Notes under the pieces: model-generated | What the model saw: only the letters and a program-made list of their open reading frames with translations | Database searches by the model: none | What the model was told of the DNA's origin: nothing | Position numbers and translations under genes: made by a program | NCBI RefSeq assembly: GCF_018889955.1 | Contig: NZ_CP076545.1 | Location: forward strand, 310,001-374,000 | Reading direction: 5' to 3' | Length of the DNA: 64,000 bases | Source: Collinsella sp. zg1085 | Lineage (GTDB): Bacteria; Actinomycetota; Coriobacteriia; Coriobacteriales; Coriobacteriaceae | Shown here: piece by piece, positions 4,332 to 16,823 of the stretch | How the letters are laid out: every line of letters starts with the position of its first letter | Numbering within the stretch: position 1 is the stretch's first letter

Positions 4332-4390
4332 CTCTGCGGGGGCACCGTGGTGCTCATATGCAATGCCCTCTATCGATTGAAAGGATTATC

Positions 4391-5461
4391 ATGCGCGACA
4401 AGCTTGAAAAACTTATTGAGGCTTATGCCGAGCTCGAAAAGAAACTCTCCGATCCTGCAGTTGTAGCCGATCAAAAAGAATATATGCGTCTTGCAAAAGA
4501 GCATGCACATCAATCTGAATTGGTTGCACGTGCCCGCGAATATGTGCAGGCGCTCGATGATATTGATGCTGCAAAAGAGATGCTCCATGAGACGAGCGAT
4601 GCTGACGAAAAGGAGATGTTGCAGGAGGAGATAAGCTCAAACGAGGCAAAACTGCCCCAGCTTGAGGAAGATATCAAGTTCATGCTTATCCCCGGCGACC
4701 CCAACGACGAGAAGAATACGATTGTTGAGATTCGTTCTGCTGCAGGTGGTGATGAGGCGGCTATTTTTGCCGGCGACCTCTTTAAGATGTATCAGCGTTT
4801 TTGCGAAATGCATAAGTGGAAAATCACCGTACTCGATTCAAGTCCTAGCGAGGTAGGCGGCTTCAAAAGTATTGAGTTTAAGGTTGAGGGCGACAAAGTA
4901 TATTCGGTTATGAAGTACGAAAGCGGCGTGCACCGAGTACAGCGTGTTCCCAAGACTGAGAGTCAAGGGCGCATTCAAACCTCAACAGCAACCGTGGCAG
5001 TGCTTCCCGAGGCAGAAGAAATTGACATTCAGATTGACCAGGGTGACCTGCGTATTGATACCTATTGCGCCTCAGGTCCTGGCGGTCAGTGCGTAAATAC
5101 CACGTATTCGGCGGTGCGCATTACACATCTGCCTACCAACACGGTAGTGCAGTCGCAGGAGCAGCGCAGTCAGATTCAAAACCGCGAGGTGTGCATGCAG
5201 ATGTTGCGTGCGCGTTTGTATGAGATGGAGTTGGAGCGTCAGCAGGCAGAGTTGGGTGCAGAGCGCCAGAGCCAGATTGGTCACGGTAACCGTTCGGAGA
5301 AGATTCGCACCTACAACCAGCCGCAAGATCGCGTAACTGATCACCGCATTGGTTTTAATAGCACCTATAACAATGTGCTTTTGGGCGAGCAGCTGCCAAA
5401 TGTCATTGATGCCTTGGCGGCAGCTGACCGTGCGGAGAAACTTGCTCACGCAGTTGACTAA
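4391..5461 (+). CDS. prfA: peptide chain release factor 1
   Basis: 356 residues from ATG 4391 (site GAAAGGA); the longer frame from 4358 has no ribosome site and exceeds the family length. It terminates translation at UAA and UAG. The stop-codon-reading motif is PKT (in RVPKTESQG), which fits the PxT tripeptide of RF1 rather than the SPF of RF2. The peptidyl-hydrolysis motif GGQ is present (GPGGQCVNTT). The residue after GGQ is cysteine where most RF1 proteins have histidine. The N-terminal helical domain, the IVEIRSAAGGDEA stretch and the C-terminal RVTDHRIGF segment are typical. The usual partner prmC is not next to it; the gene is followed by the gene-free region R1. Confidence 0.97.
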   Translation: MRDKLEKLIEAYAELEKKLSDPAVVADQKEYMRLAKEHAHQSELVARAREYVQALDDIDAAKEMLHETSDADEKEMLQEEISSNEAKLPQLEEDIKFMLIPGDPNDEKNTIVEIRSAAGGDEAAIFAGDLFKMYQRFCEMHKWKITVLDSSPSEVGGFKSIEFKVEGDKVYSVMKYESGVHRVQRVPKTESQGRIQTSTATVAVLPEAEEIDIQIDQGDLRIDTYCASGPGGQCVNTTYSAVRITHLPTNTVVQSQEQRSQIQNREVCMQMLRARLYEMELERQQAELGAERQSQIGHGNRSEKIRTYNQPQDRVTDHRIGFNSTYNNVLLGEQLPNVIDALAAADRAEKLAHAVD

Positions 5462-5595
5462 GGCGGGTGTTGAGCTTACGTGCGAGCTGTCTCTGGCTTG
5501 TTGTTTGCGCATTAATCCGGGTGAATGAATTGCACGTTTGTTGGGTGGTATAGTTTTCACTTCGCCAACTTGATGATTGATTTGCAGGTTTACGA

Positions 5596-5659
5596 GGTGG
5601 CATAGTCTTTTCACGGGAACTGCGCTTCGCGAAAGTTCCCTTAGAAAAGCTATGCCACC
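5596..5659. repeat. R1 module 1: 64-bp hairpin
   Basis: GGTGGCATAG(T)CTTTTC (5596-5612) pairs with 5644-5659. Inside it GGGAACT (5615-5621) pairs with AGTTCCC (5634-5640) around GCGCTTCGCGAA. A degenerate direct copy of the left arm (GGGTGGTATAGTTTTCAC) lies about 50 bp upstream, giving two direct arms and one inverted arm. It is nearly identical to 14226-14289. Confidence 0.85.
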
Positions 5660-5743
5660 CTTATGTTGTGGCTCAGCTATTCCTAGTTCACAGGTCAGTT
5701 TGCTCCCACTTTGCAGACAGCTTTTCATTGCATTTCAGTGGGT

Positions 5744-5799
5744 CGAATGGTTGCATTCTTCGAATGTGCTCCGCAGAATTCTCCGAGTACAATCATTCG
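5744..5799. repeat. R1 module 2: hairpin with constant loop
   Basis: CGAATGGTTG (5744-5753) pairs with CAATCATTCG (5790-5799), with one G-T pair. The loop carries the block ATTCTTCGAATGTGCTCCGC followed by AGAATTCTCCGA. The same loop recurs in module 3 within a different stem. Confidence 0.75.
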
Positions 5800-6038
5800 T
5801 CCTTTTCTTAGAGTAAATGTCAAATACATATACAGCACTTAGCTCATCCCACACCCTGCTATGCGATAGCAGCACATTCCCACACCACGCTATGTATAAG
5901 CAGTGCGTATAAGATGAAGAAGTTTTTGTTGAAGATTTTACGCGGCAAAGGAATACACTCCTCAGGTAGACTGCACCACCCGACAAACTACCCAGTAACG
6001 TGGGTTCAGCAAAACTGTTGGTTTCTCAAGTTGAAATC

Positions 6039-6100
6039 GACCAAGGTATTGCATTCTACGAATGTGCTTCGCAGAATTCTCCGAACGCAATACCTTGGTC
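6039..6100. repeat. R1 module 3: hairpin with constant loop, different stem
   Basis: GACCAAGGTATTGC (6039-6052) and GCAATACCTTGGTC (6087-6100) form a perfect 14-bp stem. The loop is ATTCTACGAATGTGCTTCGC then AGAATTCTCCGAAC, matching module 2 of R2 except for one base. CGAA/TTCG inside it can form a further small stem. Confidence 0.8.
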
Positions 6101-6233
6101 TTACGTCTGTCCTTCGTGCTTGAGACAAACGAACATTCCAATAAAGCTGTGTCCCGAGAGCACTTCTCTGAAAAAAAGTTCATTTCTTTTCTATGTGGGC
6201 AGATTTCAAAACACCGCCGACTTAAATGAGCAA

Positions 6234-6399
6234 TTTTGACAGAAACGGGCAACCTGGCACTAAATTCTGACAAAAACGGGCAATGTGGCAATAAACCCCC
6301 TGCAGCAGGAAAAGATACACTTCATCTACCTACAGGTTTATAAAACAACAAATAACCCACGGGGGTTCTACACTGCCAAATTGCCCATTTCTGTCAAAA
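6234..6399. repeat. R1 module A: long-armed inverted repeat with doubled left arm
   Basis: The left arm begins TTTTGACAGAAACGGGCAA (6234-6259 in full). A second direct copy begins TGACAAAAACGGGCAATG (6268-6290). The inverted copy is at 6374-6399. The core holds ACCCCCTGCAGCAGG, CATCTACCTACAGG and AACCCACGGGGGTTCTACA. The two left arms compete for one right arm, so alternative folds are possible. Confidence 0.8.
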
Positions 6400-6596
6400 G
6401 AGAGTTGGACTAGCATCGCCCGCGCGATTTAAGGTCTTGAACAAACCCTAGTTACCGAGCAAGTGCGACGCAATCTCTAACATAAGTCACAGCTGAAGTC
6501 GCAACAACCGAGCTTAACTTGACACCCGCGTAATATTTCTGACCTATACATCAGCAGTATTGACTACCAAGATGCTCAATCAACACCTCTGACCAG

Positions 6597-6765
6597 CGCT
6601 TTGGCAAAAATGACTAATTTGACGCAAAAACCTGTCATTTTTGACGAATTTGACGTAAGTCGACAACTGTAGCTTTACTCACAGCTCATCTACCTGCAGT
6701 TTTGCAAATCAAATACTAACCCGCTGGGTTATAGAGAGTACAAATTCGTCATTTTTGACAAAGCG
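6597..6765. repeat. R1 module B: long-armed inverted repeat with core related to module A
   Basis: CGCTTTGGCAAAAATGACTA (start of arm 6597-6621) is inverted at 6741-6765 with two mismatches over 25. A second direct element TGACGAATTTGACG lies at 6642-6655. The core CATCTACCTGCAG ... CTAACCCGCTGGGTT (6687-6730) is recognisably related to that of module A although the arms differ. Confidence 0.75.
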
Positions 6766-6993
6766 ACAGGTGTAACTTATTGCAGTGGCAAGAGAGTCGG
6801 CACTCGATACGGCGAAATAGTGCTGCTGTCTCGCTTTGCGATGCAATGTCGGTACGCTACTCTAACATGCAGCAGCTCACTATTGGTGTGCTACAGTAAT
6901 GTTTCGGCTGACTGGGAAGCTGCAGGGATTCATGGAGCAAACAATGCTCCTACGAAATTGCGACAACTCTGAGGCTCTGGAAGTTAATTAATC

Positions 6994-7123
6994 TAGTGTA
7001 CGTATTTTTGCCCACATCCCAAGTATAGGGGGTCTGTACAAGTATGTTTTTCAGCATTTCCGCAGGAAAGACGCTTTACTTCAGTAGAGTGTACTTGACC
7101 CTTTGCAACAAATTCGTACACTA
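6994..7123. repeat. R1 module C: inverted repeat TAGTGTACG
   Basis: TAGTGTACGTATTTTTG (from 6994) is inverted at 7106-7123. The interior has TATAGGGGGTCTGTACA and GCAGGAAAGACGCTTTACT, both also present in R2. It has the same arm-core-arm layout as A and B, but core similarity is weaker. Confidence 0.65.
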
Positions 7124-7217
7124 AACGGATTTGCTTTACAGCGAAGGCAGAAACCTTAAGAGTCATACCTCGAGATGTGTAAACGAAGGCTTCAAACCTC
7201 GCCTACTTCAAAATCAA

Positions 7218-7306
7218 CCTGCTGGAAAACCCATTTGTCTGGTCAATGTATAGAGCCGTAGCCTCCCTAGGCTATAGCCTTCTGTGTCACCGTGTTTTCC
7301 AGCAGG
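7218..7306. repeat. R1-specific 13-bp inverted repeat with inner hairpin
   Basis: CCTGCTGGAAAAC (7218-7230) is perfectly inverted at 7294-7306, enclosing TAGCCT/AGGCTA (7259-7274). It lies 39 bp beyond the stop codon of the minus-strand TM2-like gene and may end its transcript. R2 has no counterpart. Confidence 0.6.
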
Positions 7307-7344
7307 CTAGAATCTTTAAGAGCAAAAAATAAATACTAAACTGC

Positions 7345-7770
7345 TTAGAAACTTGCTCCAACCATGTAATAGGCTGCAACGCACCACGCCACTGCAACGA
7401 TAATAAGAGCAGATAAGAGGATATAACGCAGACTTGTATTCTCTTCGCCGGCTTTCAGAAATTCGCTTGAAGCATTTGCAACGTATCCCATATTTGCATA
7501 CGCAAATGTTGCGCGTATGAGATTGACTGCGACAAAAGCAAGCAGAACCCAGCGTAGATACATCCATGGGATGAATTTGAAATAGAACGGTGTAAGCAAG
7601 GCAAGCACGGTAGATAGAAGCATACGCCCGCCAAGGTAAGCTGAGCTACCGCCAAAGCACCCTAAAAAGAGAGTGATGATTCCATACATATACCGAGACT
7701 TCTTGACAGTCTTTTGATTATGGTCTACAGCCTTAATGTTTGCCATAATCGATGAAGTATTCGTTGACAT
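7345..7770 (-). CDS. small TM2-domain-like membrane protein
   Basis: 141 residues; the start at 7770 is supported by AGAAGGGGG upstream on the minus strand. After a polar N-terminus of about 25 residues come hydrophobic segments at roughly 28-45, 50-70, 72-90 and 115-137. The FLGCFGGSSAYLGGR stretch resembles the FLG-G-H-FYLG signature of TM2 domains, although the histidine/phenylalanine part is altered. TM2 proteins are small membrane proteins of uncertain function. It stands alone between R1 and the ybaB promoter region. I cannot assign a role. Confidence 0.7.
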   Translation of the reverse strand: MSTNTSSIMANIKAVDHNQKTVKKSRYMYGIITLFLGCFGGSSAYLGGRMLLSTVLALLTPFYFKFIPWMYLRWVLLAFVAVNLIRATFAYANMGYVANASSEFLKAGEENTSLRYILLSALIIVAVAWCVAAYYMVGASF

Positions 7771-8144
7771 ATGAACCCCCTTCTGCAGAGCACATTTTGT
7801 TGGAAGTCAGCTGATAGACGAAAAAGACCTACTTCCCATGACTTCGCAAATCCTTAGTACAATTATTTATTATTTTTTTCTTAACATTTGACCCTATCGG
7901 TGAGCGGTATAAAAACCTTGGTAAACGGTATCTTTTATGAGCTAATTGTGTGTGAATGTATCAAACAAAATGAGGCAAAAGCGAGGAGTTATAAATTCAG
8001 CTCATCATGAGGGGTTGTAATATCCCTATATTACACCACAATCCCCGTTGCCCGCCTATCGTGGTACCATGCTAGTTACATGAATGCTGTACCAGCGTTC
8101 ACTCACGAGACATCAACGAGATACTTTTTGGCAAGGAGCGCCTT
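7771..8144. other. intergenic region with hairpin, upstream of ybaB
   Basis: A 374-bp divergent spacer between the TM2-like gene and ybaB. It contains an AT-rich tract (7860-7885) and a hairpin at 8011-8046, where TGTAATAT (8016-8023) pairs perfectly with ATATTACA and GGGGTTGT pairs with ACAATCCCC. A plausible promoter is TTTGAC (7886) followed 17 bp later by TAAAAA. No gene or known RNA is recognised; dnaX, the usual upstream neighbour of ybaB, is absent. Confidence 0.5.
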
Positions 8145-8462
8145 ATGGGCATGAACATGAATCAAATGATGCAGCAAGCTCGAAAAATGCAAGCACAGAT
8201 GGCAAAAGTTGAGGAAGAGCTTAAATCTACAACAGTAGATGCGTCAGCAGGCGGCGGTATGGTAAAAGTGGTCGTCAATGGTTCAATGCAGCTTGAATCT
8301 ATCACGATTGATCCAGAGGCCTTGGACCCATCTGACGTAGAGATGCTGCAAGATATGATTGTTGCCGCCGTAAATGAGGCGCAGCGCGGCATTGCAGAAA
8401 TTGCCAATCGCCAGATGAGCGCCGTGACCGGCGGTATCAATTTACCGGGCATGCCGTTTTAG
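8145..8462 (+). CDS. ybaB: YbaB/EbfC family nucleoid-associated protein
   Basis: 105 residues behind AAGGAG. The N-terminal helix MNQMMQQARKMQAQMAKVEEEL, the central VKVVVNGSMQLESITIDPE strand region and the ALDPSDVEMLQDMI segment are the family signature (length 100-110). The homodimer binds DNA and is nearly always encoded before recR, as here (36 bp gap). It is abundant and poorly understood functionally. It probably shares a transcript with recR and the cation efflux gene. Confidence 0.93.
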   Translation: MGMNMNQMMQQARKMQAQMAKVEEELKSTTVDASAGGGMVKVVVNGSMQLESITIDPEALDPSDVEMLQDMIVAAVNEAQRGIAEIANRQMSAVTGGINLPGMPF

Positions 8463-8498
8463 CGCCTACGGCCTAAGTGTTAGATACGCAACGTAGTT

Positions 8499-9095
8499 AT
8501 GTCAGCAAATCAAAGCCTCCAAATCTTACTTGATGAGCTTGGTCGTCTTCCAGGCATCGGTCCTAAGTCGGCACAGCGTATTGCTTATTATTTGCTTGAG
8601 TCTGATGCCGAAGAAGCTCGCCGTTTAGCAGATGCCATTTTGATGGTTAAGCAGCAGGTACATTTTTGTAGCCGTTGTTTTAATTATGCAACTGCCGATG
8701 AGTGTTCTATCTGCATTGATTTCACGCGCGATACACACCGAATCTGCGTGGTAGGGGAGCCGCGTGACGTAACAGCTATTGAGCGCACGGGAAGTTATCG
8801 GGGCTTGTACCACGTGCTTGGTGGTGTAATTTCTCCAATGGATAAAATTGGTCCTGAGGATTTGCACATTCGTGAGCTGCTTGCACGTTTAGGAACAGAA
8901 GATATTACCGAGGTCATTATTGCTACCAATCCCAATATTGAGGGAGAGACAACAGCCAGCTATTTAGCGCGTATCATAAAGCCGCTTGGCGTTGAGGTAA
9001 CGCGCCTGGCAAGTGGTTTGCCGGTTGGCGGCGACCTTGAATACGCTGATGAGCTGACGCTTGGACGAGCTATTGAAGCGCGCCGAGCGCTTTAA
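8499..9095 (+). CDS. recR: recombination protein RecR
   Basis: 198 residues, the canonical length. An N-terminal helix-hairpin-helix ([20 protein letters not shown]) is followed by a C4 zinc finger ([16 protein letters not shown]), a Toprim domain ([17 protein letters not shown]) and the C-terminal Walker-like region ending [13 protein letters not shown]. With RecF/RecO it helps load RecA at gaps and daughter-strand breaks. The start ATG at 8499 has only a poor ribosome site, which fits coupling to ybaB upstream. Confidence 0.97.
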
Positions 9096-9106
9096 GGGCT
9101 TGTGGT

Positions 9107-10342
9107 ATGAGCACATCTAAAAACAAGAAACAACCGCCAAAGAATCAGCCGCAAAAAATACTTGCTGATATACGGCTTGCGCTTACGCCGGGTATGTCAG
9201 AAGAGCTGCGCAATAATCCCGAGCGCCGTGCACGCATGGGTACCCTCGTGAGTGTGTTGGGCATTTTGCTCAACGTGCTGCTCTGTGTTGTAAAAGGTCT
9301 GGTTGGACTTGCAATTTCCTCGGTTGCCATGGTGGCCGATGCAATAAATAACCTTTCAGACGCATCAAGCAACATCATAAGTATGGTAGGTTTTCGACTG
9401 GGACGTCGTCCTGCCGACCGCCAACATCCCTACGGACACGGCCGTTTTGAATATCTTGCAGGCATGGTAGTTGCGGTGCTGGTGACTTCGGTAGGGTTAG
9501 AGCTTATCCGCAGCTCGGTTGAGAGTATTATGCAGCCTGAGCCTCTACACACGAGCCCAGTTGCGTTTTTGGTGCTTGTTGTATCTATTGTGATAAAACT
9601 CGCCATGATGGCTTTGAATATGCGCGTGAGCGCCTCAATTGTCTCTGAGCCGCTGCGTGCAACTGCGCTTGATGCACGAAACGATGCCATAGCGACGGGC
9701 GCCGTGTTGGCGTGCATTATAGTTTCTGCAGTAACTGGTATTAATATGGACGGCTGGGCAGGTCTGGCAGTTGGTATCTTTATCCTGGTGAGCGGTCTTA
9801 TGTTGGTGCGCGATACTATCAATCTGCTGCTTGGCAAAGCTCCTACCAATGCAGAAATTGATGCCATTTTGCAGCGCATTCTTTCGTATCCGCATGTGCT
9901 TGGCACGCACGACCTTATGGTGCATGATTATGGCCCTGGTCGAAAATTTGCTTCAGCGCATGTTGAGATGCCCGCTGAGCTCAATCCGCTTGAAAGTCAT
10001 ATGGTACTTGACCAGATTGAGCAGGATTTTTTATCTGAGTGCAATCTTATTATGACCCTGCACTACGACCCTTTGGTAACCGATGACCCCGAGCTGCAAG
10101 ACATTCGTAATTTTGTAGCCGAGCAGGCAACAACTATAGATGAGCGCTTAAGCGTGCACGATGTTCGTCGCGTAGTTGGTCCCACTCATACCAACATCAT
10201 ATTTGATTGTGTAAAGCCCTATGATGTTGTACTCACTGAAGAAGAGTTAACTTGTTTACTAACTGAGCGGGTGCAGGGGCGCTACCCTCGGGCTTTATGC
10301 AAAATAACCTTTGACGAATCGTATGTAAGCTCCTCACAGTAA
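9107..10342 (+). CDS. cation diffusion facilitator (CDF) metal efflux transporter
   Basis: 411 residues, 11 bp after recR behind AAGGG. Six membrane segments lie around residues 45-240. They carry the CDF metal site (VADAINNLSDASSN in TM2) and the HPYGHGRFEYLAG signature, followed by a second D-x-x-x-D site in TM5 (ALDARNDAIATG). The cytoplasmic C-terminal domain carries the HDLMVHDYGP segment. CDF proteins export Zn, Mn, Fe or Co by proton antiport; the metal cannot be read from sequence. The C-terminal tail (beyond about residue 320) is longer than usual and contains a second ferredoxin-like stretch. Confidence 0.9.
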   Translation: MSTSKNKKQPPKNQPQKILADIRLALTPGMSEELRNNPERRARMGTLVSVLGILLNVLLCVVKGLVGLAISSVAMVADAINNLSDASSNIISMVGFRLGRRPADRQHPYGHGRFEYLAGMVVAVLVTSVGLELIRSSVESIMQPEPLHTSPVAFLVLVVSIVIKLAMMALNMRVSASIVSEPLRATALDARNDAIATGAVLACIIVSAVTGINMDGWAGLAVGIFILVSGLMLVRDTINLLLGKAPTNAEIDAILQRILSYPHVLGTHDLMVHDYGPGRKFASAHVEMPAELNPLESHMVLDQIEQDFLSECNLIMTLHYDPLVTDDPELQDIRNFVAEQATTIDERLSVHDVRRVVGPTHTNIIFDCVKPYDVVLTEEELTCLLTERVQGRYPRALCKITFDESYVSSSQ

Positions 10343-10488
10343 ACCGGTATTTCCTGCAACTTTGAGCTTCCTTAGCAATTTACACTCAGAGTTTTTGTTC
10401 CGGGCGGTACAATGTTTCAACATGGTTAATCCGTAGGTGCTCTCGCCGGAGCATCTTGCATGTACACCTATTGAGAGGAGAGGGGTAT

Positions 10489-13400
10489 ATGGCACGTACG
10501 TTCAAATCTATGGACGGTAACGAGGCTGCAGCATACGTCTCGTATGCGTACACGGAGGTGGCGGGTATCTATCCCATCACCCCATCGAGCCCCATGGCCG
10601 ATCACGTAGACATTTGGGCTTCCCAGGGTATGAAAAATATCTTTGGGGCTAAGGTTAACGTGGTTGAAATGCAGTCCGAGGCTGGCGCTGCTGGTACGGT
10701 TCACGGGTCTTTGGGCGTTGGCGCGCTCACGACCACCTACACCGCATCGCAGGGTCTGTTGCTGATGATCCCCAACATGTACAAGATTGCAGGTGAGAAT
10801 CTGCCAGCGGTCTTTCATGTAAGCGCACGTACCGTGGCAACACATGCCTTGAACATCTTTGGCGATCACTCCGACGTTATGGCTGCTCGCCAGACTGGCT
10901 TTGCAATGCTTGCCGAGGGTAACGTTCAGGAGGTTATGGACCTTTCCCCGGTTGCTCATCTGGCAGCTCTTGAGGGTTCGGTCCCTTTTATCAACTTCTT
11001 TGACGGCTTCCGCACCTCGCACGAGATTCAAAAAATTGCCGTGTGGGACTTTGAGGACTTAAGAGAGATGTGCGACATGGACGCTGTACAGCGCTTCCGT
11101 GACCACTCACTCAACCCAGAGCGCCCCAGCGCCCGTGGTTCTCATGAGGATGGCGACATCTTCTTCCAGCACCGTGAGTCTTGCAATCATTTCTACAACG
11201 AGCTTCCCTCGGTTGTAGAGAGCGTCATGGCAAAAGTGAATGCCAAGCTGGGCACCAACTACGGCCTGTTTAACTACTACGGCGCTGAGGATGCAGATCG
11301 TGTTGTTATCTGCATGGGCTCGTTCTGCGACACGCTTGAAGAGGTTATTGACTACCTGAACGCTCATGGCGAGAAGGTCGGCTTGGTGAAGGTTCGCCTG
11401 TTCCGTCCGTTCTCCATCAAGCACTTTGTTGATGCGTTGCCAAAGACCGTTAAAAAGATTGCTGTTATGGACCGCACCAAGGAGCCAGGCTCCATTGGTG
11501 AGCCGCTGTATCAAGACGTGGTATCAGCGCTTTATGAGGTAGGCAAGTCAGATATTACCGTTGTGGGTGGCCGCTATGGCTTGGGTTCAAAAGACACCAC
11601 ACCGGCCTCAGCCTTTGCTATCTTTGAGGAGCTCGCTAAGGACGCTCCAGCACGTGAGTTTACCGTTGGCATTGTCGATGACGTAACCAAGCTTTCTCTA
11701 GCCGAGAAGCCCGCTCCTAACACCGCAGCTGAGGGCACCATCGAGTGCAAGTTCTGGGGTCTTGGCGGCGACGGTACCGTTGGTGCTAACAAGAACTCGA
11801 TTAAGATTATTGGTGACCATACCGATAAAAACGTTCAGGCATACTTCCAGTATGACTCCAAAAAGACGGGCGGCATTACCATCAGCCACCTGCGCTTTGG
11901 CGACCAGCCAATCCGTTCAACCTATTACGTAACCAAGGCAGACTTTGTGGCCTGCCATAACCCCAGCTACGTCGTTAAGGGCTTCAAGATGGTTCGCGAC
12001 GTAAAGCCTGGTGGTACCTTCCTAGTTAACTGCCAGTGGACACCGGAGGAGTTCTCCAAGCACCTCAACGCAGAGGCTAAGCGCTACATTGCAAAGAACA
12101 ACATAAACGTCTACCTGATTAACGCTGTTGATTTGGCTGAGCAGGTTGGCATGGGCAAGCGCACCAACACGGTGTTGCAATCGGCCTTCTTTGCGCTGGC
12201 TGGCGTGCTTCCTCTTGAGGACGCCTTGCAGTACATGAAAGATGCTGCCACCAAGTCATATGCCAAGAAGGGTCAGGCTATCGTTGACGCCAACCATAAG
12301 GCTATTGATGCTGGTGCAACGGCATTTGTTAAGTTTGAGGTGCCTGCTGATTGGGCAGAGGCTGTTGACGTAGTTGAGGACGAAGTTCCTGTTGAGCTTA
12401 AGAGCGCTATCGCTAAGCAGGTTCATGAGATTTTGAACCCAGTTTCACGCATGGAAGGCGATAGCCTGCCCGTCTCTGCCTTTGTGGGTCATGAGGACGG
12501 ACAGTTTGAGATTGGTGCTTCGCAGTACGAGAAGCGCGGTGTTGCATTCCAGGTGCCGGTATGGGACCAGGACAAGTGCATTCAGTGCAATCAGTGCGCC
12601 TATGTTTGCCCGCATGCTTCAATCCGTCCCTTTGCTCTGGACGATGTTGAGCTTGCCGCAGCACCTGAGAATATGCGCGTAATTGATGTTCGCAACCCCA
12701 AGGGCAAGGGTCTGCACTTTGCTATTTCTGTCAGCCCGCTCGACTGCATGGGCTGCACCAACTGCGCAAAGGTTTGCCCCAAAGACGCTCTTACCATGGT
12801 GTCGCAGGAGAGTCAGCTCGAGGAGCAGAAGGTCTTCGATTACGCTGTGGCTCACGTTAGCGAAAAAGAGCAGCTCATCAACAATACGCTGGTGGGTACC
12901 CAGTTCAAGAAGCCGCTGCTTGAGTTCTCAGGTTCTTGCGCAGGCTGCGCCGAGACGGCATACGCTCGTTTGATTACGCAGGTTGCTGGTGACCGCATGT
13001 TTGTTTCCAATGCAACGGGCTGCTCTTCCATTTGGGGTAATCCTTCGGCACGTAGCCCATTTACTACCGACGCAAACGGTCATGGTCCGGCGTGGAACAA
13101 CTCGCTGTTTGAGGACAACGCCGAGCACGGTTTGGGTATGCTGCTTGGTTATGAGGCAGTTCAGGATAAGCTGGTTGTTGTCGCCGAAAAGATGATTGCA
13201 AGCGACACAGAGAGCGACGAGCTTAAGGCCGCAGCACAAGAGTGGCTTGATAGTCGCCATGGTGCCTATGAGTCCAAGGTAGGCGCTGCCAAGCTCTTGG
13301 CTGCCTGCGAGGCCTCTGAGAGCCCGCTTGCTAAAGAGATTCTTGCCGATAAGGAATATCTCACCAAGAAGTCCTTCTGGATTATGGGCGGTGACGGCTG

Positions 13401-14031
13401 GGCCTACGACATCGGCTTCGGTGGTCTTGACCACGTTATTGCATCGGGTCATAACGTCAACATCTTTGTCTTTGATACCGAGGTGTACTCCAACACCGGT
13501 GGTCAGGCATCTAAGGCATCAAATATCGGTCAGGTTGCCCAGTTTGCAGCAGCTGGCAAGGTAACCAAGAAGAAGAGCTTGGCTGAGATTGCTATGAGCT
13601 ATGGTCACGTATACGTGGCACAGGTTGCTATGGGTGCAAATCCCACTCAAACGCTCAAGGCAATTACTGAGGCCGAGGCTTATGACGGTCCTTCCATCAT
13701 CATTGGTTACAGCCCCTGCGAGATGCACTCCATTAAGAAGGGTGGTATGCAGAACTGCCAGATGGAGATGAAAGATGCAGTAAGCTGCGGGTATTGGAAC
13801 CTCTTCCGCTTCAATCCGGCAGCAGCGGCTGGCAAGCGCTTTGCGCTTGATTCTAAGGCGCCGGCGGGTGGCTATCAGGACTTCTTGATGAACGAAGCAC
13901 GCTACGCTGGTTTGACGCGTTCGTTCCCCGAGGCAGCTGAGGAGCTCTTTGCTCGGAGCGAGAAGGAAGCTATGGAGCGCTATCAGCATCTGGTACGCTT
14001 GAAGGACGTGTATAACGCGGTCGAAGAATAG
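10489..14031 (+). CDS. nifJ: pyruvate:ferredoxin (flavodoxin) oxidoreductase
   Basis: 1180 residues from ATG 10489 (site GAGAGGAGAGGGG); the longer frame from 10456 starts upstream of that site. It oxidises pyruvate with CoA to acetyl-CoA and CO2, reducing ferredoxin. All domains are fused in the usual order. Domain I is pyrimidine-binding (YPITPSSPMADH), then the CoA/transketolase C-like and gamma domains (FWGLGGDGTVGANK). Two 4Fe-4S clusters follow, CIQCNQCAYVCP (around residue 697) and CMGCTNCAKVCP (around 753). The TPP domain has SCAGCAE (around 817), a C-C pair for the proximal cluster, and GGDGWAYDIGFGG. It is an oxygen-sensitive enzyme marking an anaerobic energy metabolism, and its codon use is markedly cleaner than its neighbours, consistent with high expression. 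Confidence 0.98.
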   Translation: MARTFKSMDGNEAAAYVSYAYTEVAGIYPITPSSPMADHVDIWASQGMKNIFGAKVNVVEMQSEAGAAGTVHGSLGVGALTTTYTASQGLLLMIPNMYKIAGENLPAVFHVSARTVATHALNIFGDHSDVMAARQTGFAMLAEGNVQEVMDLSPVAHLAALEGSVPFINFFDGFRTSHEIQKIAVWDFEDLREMCDMDAVQRFRDHSLNPERPSARGSHEDGDIFFQHRESCNHFYNELPSVVESVMAKVNAKLGTNYGLFNYYGAEDADRVVICMGSFCDTLEEVIDYLNAHGEKVGLVKVRLFRPFSIKHFVDALPKTVKKIAVMDRTKEPGSIGEPLYQDVVSALYEVGKSDITVVGGRYGLGSKDTTPASAFAIFEELAKDAPAREFTVGIVDDVTKLSLAEKPAPNTAAEGTIECKFWGLGGDGTVGANKNSIKIIGDHTDKNVQAYFQYDSKKTGGITISHLRFGDQPIRSTYYVTKADFVACHNPSYVVKGFKMVRDVKPGGTFLVNCQWTPEEFSKHLNAEAKRYIAKNNINVYLINAVDLAEQVGMGKRTNTVLQSAFFALAGVLPLEDALQYMKDAATKSYAKKGQAIVDANHKAIDAGATAFVKFEVPADWAEAVDVVEDEVPVELKSAIAKQVHEILNPVSRMEGDSLPVSAFVGHEDGQFEIGASQYEKRGVAFQVPVWDQDKCIQCNQCAYVCPHASIRPFALDDVELAAAPENMRVIDVRNPKGKGLHFAISVSPLDCMGCTNCAKVCPKDALTMVSQESQLEEQKVFDYAVAHVSEKEQLINNTLVGTQFKKPLLEFSGSCAGCAETAYARLITQVAGDRMFVSNATGCSSIWGNPSARSPFTTDANGHGPAWNNSLFEDNAEHGLGMLLGYEAVQDKLVVVAEKMIASDTESDELKAAAQEWLDSRHGAYESKVGAAKLLAACEASESPLAKEILADKEYLTKKSFWIMGGDGWAYDIGFGGLDHVIASGHNVNIFVFDTEVYSNTGGQASKASNIGQVAQFAAAGKVTKKKSLAEIAMSYGHVYVAQVAMGANPTQTLKAITEAEAYDGPSIIIGYSPCEMHSIKKGGMQNCQMEMKDAVSCGYWNLFRFNPAAAAGKRFALDSKAPAGGYQDFLMNEARYAGLTRSFPEAAEELFARSEKEAMERYQHLVRLKDVYNAVEE

Positions 14032-14039
14032 GTAGTAAG

Positions 14040-14075
14040 GACCTACGCCGCCTCTTTTCTGAGGTGGTGTAGGTC
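14040..14075 (+). terminator. hairpin after nifJ
   Basis: GACCTACGCCGCCTC (14040-14054) pairs with GAGGTGGTGTAGGTC (14061-14075) with two G-T pairs and a TTTTCT loop. It starts nine bases after the stop codon. No T tract follows, so termination may be imperfect, or the hairpin may stabilise the 3' end of the transcript. Confidence 0.65.
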
Positions 14076-14225
14076 GAGCTAGCTTTGTGTTTGCTGATTG
14101 ATTTGCAAGCCTGTTGGGTGATATTGGCCTTTCGCATCGTCTAAGTTAGGCGAATGGTTCGTAAGCTTACGGGGTGGCAGAGGCTTTCTCTTCGTTAGTT
14201 TGACGAGTGAATTGCAGGCGTATGG

Positions 14226-14289
14226 GGTGGCATAGTCTTTTCACAGGAACTGCGCTTCGCGAAAGTTCCCTTAGAAAAGCTATGCCACC
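14226..14289. repeat. R2 module 1: 64-bp hairpin
   Basis: Same as 5596-5659, with a single clear difference in the inner stem (A for G). A degenerate direct arm, GGGGTGGCAGAGGCTTTCTC, lies upstream at 14170-14190. Confidence 0.85.
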
Positions 14290-14369
14290 CTTATGTTGCA
14301 GCTCTATCTCACCTGTTTTATGAGCTAATTCACCCTCTCAATAGATTACTTATTACCTCATATCAACTG

Positions 14370-14429
14370 GACGAATGATTGCATTCTACGAATGCGCTTC
14401 GCAGAATTCTCCGAACACAATCATTCGTC
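14370..14429. repeat. R2 module 2: hairpin with constant loop
   Basis: GACGAATGATTG (14370-14381) and CAATCATTCGTC (14418-14429) form a perfect 12-bp stem. Where R1 has a G-T pair, R2 has A-T, a pairing-preserving change. The loop matches that of module 3 of R1 except for one base. Confidence 0.8.
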
Positions 14430-14636
14430 GTTTTCCTTAGAGTAAATGCCAAATACACATACAGCAGTCGGTTCACTTACGCCCTGCCATGCGATAGCAT
14501 CACATATAAGAAGAAAGGAGTTGGGTTGTAGCTTTACCAAGGCAAAAGAGATTCACGCCTCAGGTAGACTGCACCAACCGAAAATCTACCTAGAAACGTA
14601 AGCTAAGCATAATGGCTCGTTACTCAACTTAAATAA

Positions 14637-14698
14637 GACCAAGGTATTGCATTCTACGAATGTGCTACGCAAAATTCTCCGAACGCAATACCTTGGCC
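14637..14698. repeat. R2 module 3: hairpin
   Basis: CCAAGGTATTGC (14639-14650) pairs with GCAATACCTTGG (14685-14696). The loop differs from module 3 of R1 at two positions (TGCTACGCAAAATTCTCC). Confidence 0.8.
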
Positions 14699-14831
14699 TT
14701 TCGGCTGCTCACTGTGCTTGAAGCAAACTGCATCTCAATAAAGTTGTGTCCCGAGAGCACTTCCCTGAAAAAGCACCTCGTTCCTCTCTTGTGCGGACAG
14801 ATTCCAAAACACAACCAACTTGGATGAGCTG

Positions 14832-14997
14832 TTTTGACAGAAAGGGGCAATTTGGCAGTAAAACCTGACAAAAACGGGCAATGTGGCAATAAACCCCCTG
14901 TAGCAGAAAGAATTGCACTTCATCTACCTGCAGGTTTACGAAACAACAAATAACCCACGGGGGTTCTACACTGCCAAATTGCCCGTTTCTGTCAAAA
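14832..14997. repeat. R2 module A: long-armed inverted repeat with doubled left arm
   Basis: The left arm (14832-14857) pairs with the inverted arm (14972-14997) at 25 of 26 positions. The second direct left arm is at 14866-14888. The core has ACCTGCAGGT and AACCCACGGGGGTTCTACA, as in R1. Confidence 0.82.
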
Positions 14998-15195
14998 GAG
15001 GGTTGGACTGGTAGTGCCAGCCATAGAAAACAGCGTATCGAAAAACTTAACTTCCGAGTGTTCGTAGCTCAACTTCCAACATAAGTTGTAGCTGAAGCCG
15101 CAACAACCGAGCTTAACTTGATGCCTGTCTAATATCTCTGACCTATACATAGGCAGTATTGACTGCCAAGATATTCAAACAACCCTTCTAACCTG

Positions 15196-15364
15196 CGCTT
15201 TGGCAAAAATGACTAATTTGACGCAAAAATCTGTCATTTTTGACTAATTTGGTATAAGGAGACAATTGTTGCTTTATACGCGGCTTATCTACCTGCGTCT
15301 TTATGAAACAAATACAAACCCGCTGGGTTATAGAGAGTACTTTTTAGTTATTTTTGCCAAAGCG
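15196..15364. repeat. R2 module B: inverted repeat CGCTTTGGCAAAAAT
   Basis: The arm 15196-15216 is inverted at 15344-15364 with one mismatch in 21. The right arm differs from R1 (GCCAAAGCG instead of GACAAAGCG) in a way that restores pairing with the left arm. The core keeps CCCGCTGGGTTATAGAGAGT. Confidence 0.75.
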
Positions 15365-15593
15365 ACAGCTGTAACTTATCTATGTGACAAGAGCGTTAGC
15401 ATCTGATACGGCGTAATAGTGCTGCTATTTCGTTCTGCGAAGCAATGCCGATATGTTAACCCAACGTGTAACGATGCATCGTTGTCTTGTCGCAGCAATA
15501 TCCTGGCGTAATGGGAAGTCGCAGGGATTCTTGGAGCAAACAATGCTCCTGCGAAATTACGAAAACTCAGGGCTTCTGAGAGGCAAATCGTTT

Positions 15594-15720
15594 TAGTGTA
15601 CGAATTTTTGCCAGCAGCCGACTATAGGGGGTCTGTATAAGCAAGGTTTTCAGCATTTCAGCAGGAAAGACGCTTTACTGCAGTAGAGTGTACTTGGCTC
15701 TAGTCAAAAATCGTACATCA
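15594..15720. repeat. R2 module C: inverted repeat TAGTGTACG
   Basis: TAGTGTACGAATTTTTG (15594-15610) faces a partly matching inverted arm at 15705-15720. The interior block CTATAGGGGGTCTGTA is shared with R1. Confidence 0.6.
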
Positions 15721-15809
15721 CATCGATTTGCCCCTAAAGCCAAGCAACCAAACAACACATTGAGCCGTAGCATCTACCGCATACCTGCGCAGCGTCTAAG
15801 CCCTAACCC

Positions 15810-16823
15810 CTAAAAGGTTGAGTCGCCCCACGAAATAGTGCAGTCAAGCTCTTGATGCTGAATTTCAAGCTCCCGATCGCCGAGGGCTTCAAGCAAAATA
15901 CGACCCGCTTCTGTTCCTTCCGCATCGGCAGGCTGACACACCACAGACACCGATGGCGTTGCCACGCGCACCCATTCGGTGTTGTCAAAACCTAACAGAC
16001 CAAGCCGCGGCATATGCTCATAGAAAGGTCGAAGTGCCACATAAATATCAGCAAGCGCCCAGCAATTGGCAACAAAAATCAGTGTAGGGGTTGTCTTGTC
16101 AAAATAGGTTTCAACAAAGGAAACCACTTGATCGCGGTCAACTCCCTCATCTTGCAGAATAAACTCGTCGTAGCTCAGACCGTGCTCTTTTAGCGCATCG
16201 GCAAAACCCGTGACGCGCTCCACACGACTTGAAATAAGTCCCGGGTTTGCGGTAATCAGCAAAAAGCGCTTATATCCTCGTTGAATGCATTCAGAAACTG
16301 CTTGGAAAGATGCCTCATAGTTGTTTGCTTTCACCCAGTGCGTCTGCGTGTCGTACATACGTGAGTCAATACAAACCAGCTCTTTACCTGCCTCGGTAAT
16401 CATCTTGTGAATACCCGCTGATTGTGCCGTTGGCTGCAGCACAAATCCATCCACTCCCAGCGCAAGCAGCTGGTCGATAATAGCGAGCTCATTTGCGGTG
16501 TCATAGCTCGAATTGCATACGAGCACCCGGTAATCGTCCTCGCGCACCACATGATCAATCGCCTTCACCAAGATATTCGAGAAAGAATTGGTGATATTAC
16601 CGATGATGATGCCCAGAAGGCGCGTATCTTTATCATTAAGGCCGCGCGCAAGGGGGCTCGGCTTGTACCCGGTTTTTTCGATAGCTTCGGTAATTTTCTC
16701 CTGGGTAGCCAGCGACATACGCTCCGTTTTGCCATTGAGGTAAAAGGAGACCGTTGTCTTAGAAACACCAGCCATGTCAGCGATGTCACGTATAGTCAAT
16801 CGCCGGGCGGGACGGTTGGTCAT
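15810..16823 (-). CDS. LacI family transcriptional regulator
   Basis: 337 residues from the ATG at 16823 (GAAAGGTG upstream on the minus strand); a longer frame to 16847 lacks a site. The N-terminal LacI helix-turn-helix and hinge (TIRDIADMAGVSKTTVSFYLN, written here as one motif region, residues 10-30) continue with the YKPSPLARGL hinge helix. A periplasmic-binding-like effector domain follows (LLGIIIGNITNSFS to the C-terminus). Such regulators usually respond to a sugar. No sugar gene is adjacent: upstream and divergent is a small iron-related membrane protein, downstream is R2. The target is therefore unknown. Confidence 0.92.
   Translation of the reverse strand: MTNRPARRLTIRDIADMAGVSKTTVSFYLNGKTERMSLATQEKITEAIEKTGYKPSPLARGLNDKDTRLLGIIIGNITNSFSNILVKAIDHVVREDDYRVLVCNSSYDTANELAIIDQLLALGVDGFVLQPTAQSAGIHKMITEAGKELVCIDSRMYDTQTHWVKANNYEASFQAVSECIQRGYKRFLLITANPGLISSRVERVTGFADALKEHGLSYDEFILQDEGVDRDQVVSFVETYFDKTTPTLIFVANCWALADIYVALRPFYEHMPRLGLLGFDNTEWVRVATPSVSVVCQPADAEGTEAGRILLEALGDRELEIQHQELDCTISWGDSTF

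Follow-up and report, generated by a model that had tools for sequence, protein, structure and literature searches.

The 64,000-nucleotide stretch of Collinsella sp. zg1085 DNA analyzed here (contig NZ_CP076545.1, positions 310,001 to 374,000; "the window") contains two similar regions of about 1.5 kb, R1 and R2, each composed of six hairpin modules, A to F. Modules A, B and C carry one common core, core 1, on three different stems. Core 1 recurs in related genomes on stems that are unrelated yet still complementary, and it is found there on the sense strand, a short distance past the stop codons of everyday genes. From these comparisons we assign a probability of roughly 55% to the reading that core 1 is a terminator-embedded RNA motif of the 3' untranslated region (3'-UTR), with a tip that serves for docking, and that it was amplified in this species into multi-hairpin repeats.

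Core 1 combines a short stem and a tip with a small internal loop, of the form AC opposite UUA or UNC opposite UYC; the tip reads GUGCGCUUCGCGRAAC in most relatives. In a first search with the whole element, 97 relatives yielded no complete copy and three short weak matches, which hit the centers of modules: the A core in genome G078, the F core in G017 and the E core in G045. These places are hairpins, or adjoin one, with arms unlike those of the window genome, which suggests that the tip is conserved and the stem replaceable. The core 1 covariance model, the first version of which was built from seven sequences, has matches in 57 of 395 Coriobacteriales genomes including the window's own, mostly Thermophilibacter (with former Olsenella). 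In a draw of 396 genomes from the phylum nine matched; eight belong to this order, the window genome among them, and the ninth is marginal (E 9e-4). A second model, trained on the matches of the first, gave 18 matches in G203, 32 in G095, 14 in G182, 16 in G070, 2 in G179 and 31 in the window genome, counts that include some opposite-strand rows of one place. Core 1 is present both in family f1, that of the window genome, and in f5.

The stem covaries strongly. Both sides change in 16 of its 20 pairs, and the covariation score is 0.381 as against 0.153 for shuffled and at most 0.095 for slid alignments; none of 500 shuffles reached the observed value on all five measures. The core is nearly fixed over genera and 20 gene families, with stems turning over by compensating changes. 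Two places in G024 (L308 and L309), near-perfect hairpins without the conserved internal loop, were excluded from this support.

The position of core 1 was analyzed in 71 of 79 model matches, seven duplicate fetches having been dropped and locus L118 left out; these are best-scoring or chosen places from one genome per species, not a random sample. In 68 of the 71 instances the core lies downstream of a same-strand gene without overlapping it. The distance to the stop codon is 16-44 nt in 67 of these, and the remaining one lies at 104 nt, behind another copy. L152 overlaps a called open reading frame (ORF) and has a same-strand gene end 16 nt upstream; L151 is on a contig without an upstream gene; L184, within a called ORF, is the single clear exception to the rule. 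The uncounted L118, at the purL place, is on the same strand and just past the stop codon, and in G056 (family f1) two cores lie, by eye, 38 and 31 nt past the apparent ends of rpsJ and of an aminopeptidase gene. The next gene downstream of the 68 clean instances is on the same strand in 35 and on the opposite strand in 32, with no strand assigned in one.

Upstream genes include groEL, rplX, rpsJ, leuS, purL and pyk. Representatives of 19 of the 20 upstream protein families match NCBIfam models in the called frame, 13 of them above the curated cut-off. These 13 are PurL, leucyl-tRNA ligase, polynucleotide phosphorylase, formate-tetrahydrofolate ligase, GroEL, pyruvate kinase, an aminopeptidase, glutamate synthase, glutamate dehydrogenase, branched-chain transaminase, phosphoglycerate mutase, L24 and S10. 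The rplX-rplE gap of some genomes contains the hairpin and, where parsed, measures 312-956 nt. At L157 (2665-4162) rpsJ and rplC are separated by two non-ribosomal genes, which come just past the core hairpin and one of which has, by eye, a phosphoglycerate-mutase-like start.

At one orthologous terminator the same stem occurs with and without core 1. The groEL 3' ends of 28 genomes carry the sense core in 23 cases, a core that reads better when inverted in one (G178) and no clear match in four; of these four, G181 and G195 look by eye like diverged cores, and G188 and G202 are plain hairpins whose tails are rich in T. The outer stem GAGCCCCCGG/CCGGGGGCTC is common to the plain G202 and G188 and to the core-bearing G095 and G078, all at the same groEL place. 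At rplX the core lies 48-52 nt past the stop codon in 13 of 18 parsed 3' ends (12 of the 30 loci were left unparsed by the pattern used); by eye, G177, G183 and G187 have changed forms of the core, and G180 and G195 have plain T-tailed hairpins. Comparison at these two genes thus indicates that the core occupies the position that a plain loop takes in other terminators. By eye, the T-tract at groEL is clear in G195, G179, G188 and G202 and weak in the others. The sense strand, the fixed distance, the covarying exchange of stems and the place at the terminator tip together favor an RNA element that belongs to mRNA 3' ends.

The following observations weigh against this assignment. The 69 upstream proteins fall into 20 families, and the instances are thus not independent. 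Simpler ORF and codon callers gave mixed strands, and the gene caller finally used was reseeded, with G+C content at third codon positions (GC3) above that at first positions (GC1), after this had been seen. We attribute the mixed strands to a wrong choice of strand by the simple callers in GC-rich DNA (purL beside L117 is visibly backwards); since the reseeding was chosen after the first results, the NCBIfam matches in frame are the better evidence. The covariation alignment looks better for having been fitted to the model, and its rows are related. The T-tracts past core-bearing stems look weak by eye. In the window genome, module A is on the sense strand in just 21 of the 29 cases with a neighbor, and in those 21 it lies as far as 91-271 nt past the stop codon. 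Finally, the second core, that of modules D and E, follows no strict strand rule: its orientation is mixed elsewhere, and in the window genome 23 copies are on the same strand and 11 on the opposite one.

R1 and R2 belong to a modular repeat that is dispersed over the window genome. The R1 query has 146 matches there, and the repeat forms at least 44 clusters of 169 to 2069 bp, which total 33,634 bp, or about 2% of the 1.72-Mb genome. None of the 44 overlaps a called gene. The flanking genes are ++ in 16 clusters, -- in 12, convergent in 11, divergent in three and unknown at an edge in two. The number 44 is a minimum: 40 of 58 candidate places were scored in the first search, and later searches added others outside the clusters, for example at 67819, 1520139 and 1598876. 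The arms of D have 79 matches genome-wide and those of E 34, as against none for reversed control patterns; all 79 D-arm matches form 30 short units, each with the opposite arm at most 260 bp away. The arrangements include D and E as solo units (about 170 and 185 bp, respectively), the order A-B-C-D-E-F and, at several loci, A-B-C-D-E-F followed by inverted C', B' and A'. Hybrid modules, with the left arm of B and the right arm of C, occur at genome positions 260271, 1275532, 1297469 and 1649061. Two near-identical solo D units at 496853 and 498658, about 1.8 kb apart beside two 984-bp genes, have matching left flanks and look as after a tandem duplication.

As modules occur solo, inverted and recombined, R1 and R2 are composites. 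A sequence-only reading of the window had proposed two special collinear units, non-coding, unlike any known RNA class and kept by selection on structure rather than by recent duplication. R1 (5560-7145) and R2 (14190-15731) are indeed 77.1% identical over 1585 columns in a pairwise alignment, with collinear modules, the same orientation and the inverted arms present in both at the positions given by that reading. By codon usage neither region has a called gene; two mechanical minus-strand ORFs (218 and 109 amino acids) that overlap R1 were not among the calls. Divergence is uneven as described, with 87.7% identity in the hairpin modules (657 columns) and 66.9% in the spacers (934 columns); by module the values are 98% for A, 95% for C, 91% for D, 87% for B, 84% for E and 81% for F. 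The retention of modules and drift of spacers, together with the covariation of A-type hairpins across species, support selection on structure, and the recurrence of core 1 with covariation in related Coriobacteriales supplies additional covarying copies, for which that reading had asked as a test. The opposition to duplication is not supported: spread within one genome means that duplication or mobility also contributed. Nor are R1 and R2 a special pair, given the 44 or more clusters.

Modules D and E have in common a second core, core 2, which is read on the strand opposite to that of A, B and C. Its model, a sequence-only one made from the center of E, scored 11 copies in the window genome and weak places in many others. 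Low-scoring matches occur in 92 of 395 genomes at E up to 0.02, chance ones among them, and the statements made here rely solely on an inverted-repeat test. In this test core 2 lies within an inverted repeat (score at least 16) at 16 of 29 loci from other genomes, as against 2 of 971 control windows of the same loci; at the other 13 loci it lies outside such repeats. The arms are up to about 40 bp long, vary from genus to genus and in some cases form tandem repeats, as in D. In G045 a core 2 hairpin stands about 32 nt past a same-strand stop codon; if read as there, D and E of R1 and R2 would be on the strand of the gene to the right.

The draft genome G390 has eleven scored core 2 places, and at least ten inspected hairpins there (L225 and L250-L258) have arms of about 50 bp of one family, which is itself a dispersed repeat. 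In Thermophilibacter, both arms of the core 2 hairpins at L235, L245, L265, L266 and L268 consist of tandem GTATGTACACCC-like units. In several genomes of the window's genus (L246-L249 and L267) a core 2 hairpin with matching arms occupies one place, and at L246, L247 and L267 a second copy is found about 1.4 kb away. The third core, that of module F, was found outside the window genome in one of 394 other genomes (G017).

The positions of the modules and of the neighboring genes are given in the table. Both regions are situated between convergent genes, with A, B and C on the strand of the left gene. The tandem repeats of about 53 bp that precede both A modules, and that include its left arm, resemble the 31-bp duplication of the left arm of D. 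An extra hairpin, whose arms are about 15 bp long and whose center differs, is seen at 7216-7312, between R1 and the minus-strand gene at 7345-7770, downstream of that gene.

Table. Modules of R1 and R2 and the genes that flank them (window coordinates)
Feature	Position	Strand	Remarks
Gene left of R1	4358..5461	+	Peptide chain release factor (PCRF and RF-1 domains)
R1 tandem repeat, ~53 bp	5523..5595 (5523-5609 with the part inside A)	+	Two copies (5523 and 5575); holds left arm of A
R1 module A	5596..5659	+	Hairpin, core 1 (AC opposite UUA loop)
R1 module B	about 5751..5802	+	Hairpin, core 1, second stem (UNC opposite UYC loop)
R1 module C	6039..6100	+	Hairpin, core 1, third stem
R1 module D	6234..6402	- (core 2 strand)	Inverted arms of 26 bp, the left one duplicated at 31 bp; core 2
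R1 module E	6597..6768	- (core 2 strand)	25-bp inverted arms; core 2
R1 module F	about 6981..7136		Inverted arms flanking third core
Gene right of R1	7345..7770	-	141-amino-acid protein without Pfam match
Gene left of R2	10468..14031	+	Pyruvate:ferredoxin/flavodoxin oxidoreductase; start set at ATG in 10468
R2 tandem repeat, ~53 bp	14096..14224 (14096-14239 with the part inside A)	+	Three copies (14096, 14152 and 14205); precedes A
R2 module A	14226..14289	+	
R2 module B	14369..14429	+	
R2 module C	14635..14700	+	
R2 module D	14829..15000	-	
R2 module E	15196..15364	-	
R2 module F	15579..15735		
Gene right of R2	15810..16823	-	LacI-family regulator

Searches for a known class were negative. 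Rfam has no match at the gathering threshold in the window, in line with the sequence-only reading. A lax E-value search of 2.7 kb around R1 returned one chance-level row and nothing relevant, and the same search of 11 related loci gave no relevant match; the hairpin rows in these lax searches are microRNA and Dictyoglomi-1 models far under gathering. The element was not found in the literature searched, a coverage that excludes most subscription journals, and Olsenella, Atopobium and Collinsella are absent from the main texts of PMC3733652, PMC12306157, PMC8632094 and PMC11109978. A role in DNA uptake was considered for the core, which we take to resemble the Haemophilus uptake signal. Uptake sequences occur in a thousand or more copies per genome, and the idea was dropped because Thermophilibacter genomes have only 2 to 32 matches each.

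The repetitive extragenic palindromic (REP) sequences and bacterial interspersed mosaic elements (BIMEs) are, according to PMC3733652, short dispersed intergenic palindromes, single or in mosaics, which are suspected of acting in termination and mRNA stability and have an unpaired GTAG or CGTC tag at one end. The present repeat is similar in that it consists of dispersed intergenic palindromes (44 of 44 clusters). It differs from REP/BIME sequences with their REP-associated tyrosine transposases (RAYTs) in keeping its tip and changing its stem, in having cores 1 and 2 on unrelated stems in other genera and in the absence of a Y1 gene from this genome. By eye, no tag stands beside A, and B ends in CGTC, but this is paired. 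Modules D and E, as non-coding units of 170-185 bp with inverted ends of 25-26 bp, resemble miniature inverted-repeat transposable elements (MITEs); unlike in these, the ends vary between relatives, the inside is conserved and a parent element was not found in this genome. Like a Rho-independent terminator, the core 1 stem follows a stop codon, and at groEL its outer stem is common with plain T-tailed hairpins; unlike one, it has a conserved structured tip, often a long outer stem and, by eye, a weak T-tract. The multi-stem HRC-28-1 motif, proposed in PMC8632094 as a 3'-UTR element that ends in a terminator, differs from core 1 in sequence and taxon, being known there from 33 examples, mostly of Polynucleobacter, in one gene neighborhood.

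The dispersal of the repeat raises the possibility that the core is a selfish miniature element, that is, a short mobile DNA unit which enters palindrome tips, or is exchanged between them, by means of a transposase acting in trans, so that its 3'-UTR place merely reflects where palindromes are. The numerous places occupied by composites or by D or E alone, the paired arms in all 30 D units, the orthologous groEL and rplX hairpins that occur with and without core 1, the inverted-looking core in G178 and the eleven core 2 places in G390, with inspected copies of one arm family, are what such an element would produce. The strict strand and distance of core 1 in relatives are not, and the variable arms around a conserved inside are the reverse of a usual miniature element. 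No target duplication was seen by eye at the flanks of solo copies, empty sites not having been compared. The Y1 transposase (PF01797), the only transposase family searched, has no match in the window genome; it is present in five of the ten genomes searched and absent from four of the nine others. A longer parent element with the arms of D was sought and not found: in this genome all D-arm matches lie in short paired units. A phage origin was also set aside, each core pattern matching one viral contig only. We regard a selfish element as unlikely, if still deserving serious attention; these searches turned up no decayed known transposon or phage segment, the case that would have told against the sequence-only reading.

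If the hairpins were ordinary intrinsic terminators with tips alike by common descent and devoid of function, their place after stop codons, the outer stems common to plain and core-bearing hairpins and the occurrence at corresponding genes in many related species would follow. This is quite improbable in view of a core that is nearly fixed across genera and 20 gene families on stems that turn over with compensation, and that sits on three stems in the window genome and in both families f1 and f5. A terminator-embedded riboswitch or attenuator similar to the hydroxymethylpyrimidine pyrophosphate (HMP-PP) riboswitch would control the downstream gene, and a same-strand gene does come next in 35 of the 68 clean instances, for example rplE after rplX. 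In the 32 cases with an opposite-strand next gene, however, a downstream target is lacking; the core keeps to the upstream gene, to whose stop codon it is tied, and about half of the copies face an opposing gene, which makes this explanation very unlikely. Least credible, and close to negligible, is a single large structured non-coding RNA of about 1.5 kb in each of R1 and R2. The collinear order and similar spacing in these and several other loci would fit it; the modules, however, occur solo, inverted, recombined and in partial sets, and comparison with relatives has A-B-C and D-E read on opposite strands.

By combining these observations, it is possible to outline how core 1 might act as a 3'-UTR motif, although we infer its transcription, function, binding factor and mode of spread from sequence comparison. 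The stem would end or protect the transcript and would be free to change in sequence as long as it remained paired. The core would stay fixed as the docking site of a putative factor, most likely an RNA-binding protein, which might strengthen termination or shield the 3' end from exonucleases. Reading of core 2 in D and E would run on the opposite strand and toward the opposing gene. Such hairpins may have multiplied in the window's species, by recombination or by transposition in trans, to the 44 or more intergenic places, and R1 and R2 would be copies of the resulting composite repeat of mRNA-3'-end-type hairpins. A bolder and rather doubtful extension is that the cores are interchangeable RNA cassettes, units of about 45 nt (core 1) or 80 nt (core 2), which move between palindrome or terminator tips throughout the Coriobacteriales with the hairpin loop as their landing site, core 1 RNA being kept in sense and recruiting a dedicated factor to the 3' ends of housekeeping mRNAs.

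It is usual to regard terminator tips as free of sequence constraint. Conserved ones are described as unusual in PMC8632094. A tip that persists over two families, on a stem that changes pair by pair or is exchanged whole, lends itself to a direct test through its binding partner. If the docking-tip reading is true, a factor that ends or protects groEL, ribosomal and glycolytic transcripts would amount to a layer of RNA control that the literature searched does not describe for this group, and the window's species would be an example of what results when such hairpins multiply.

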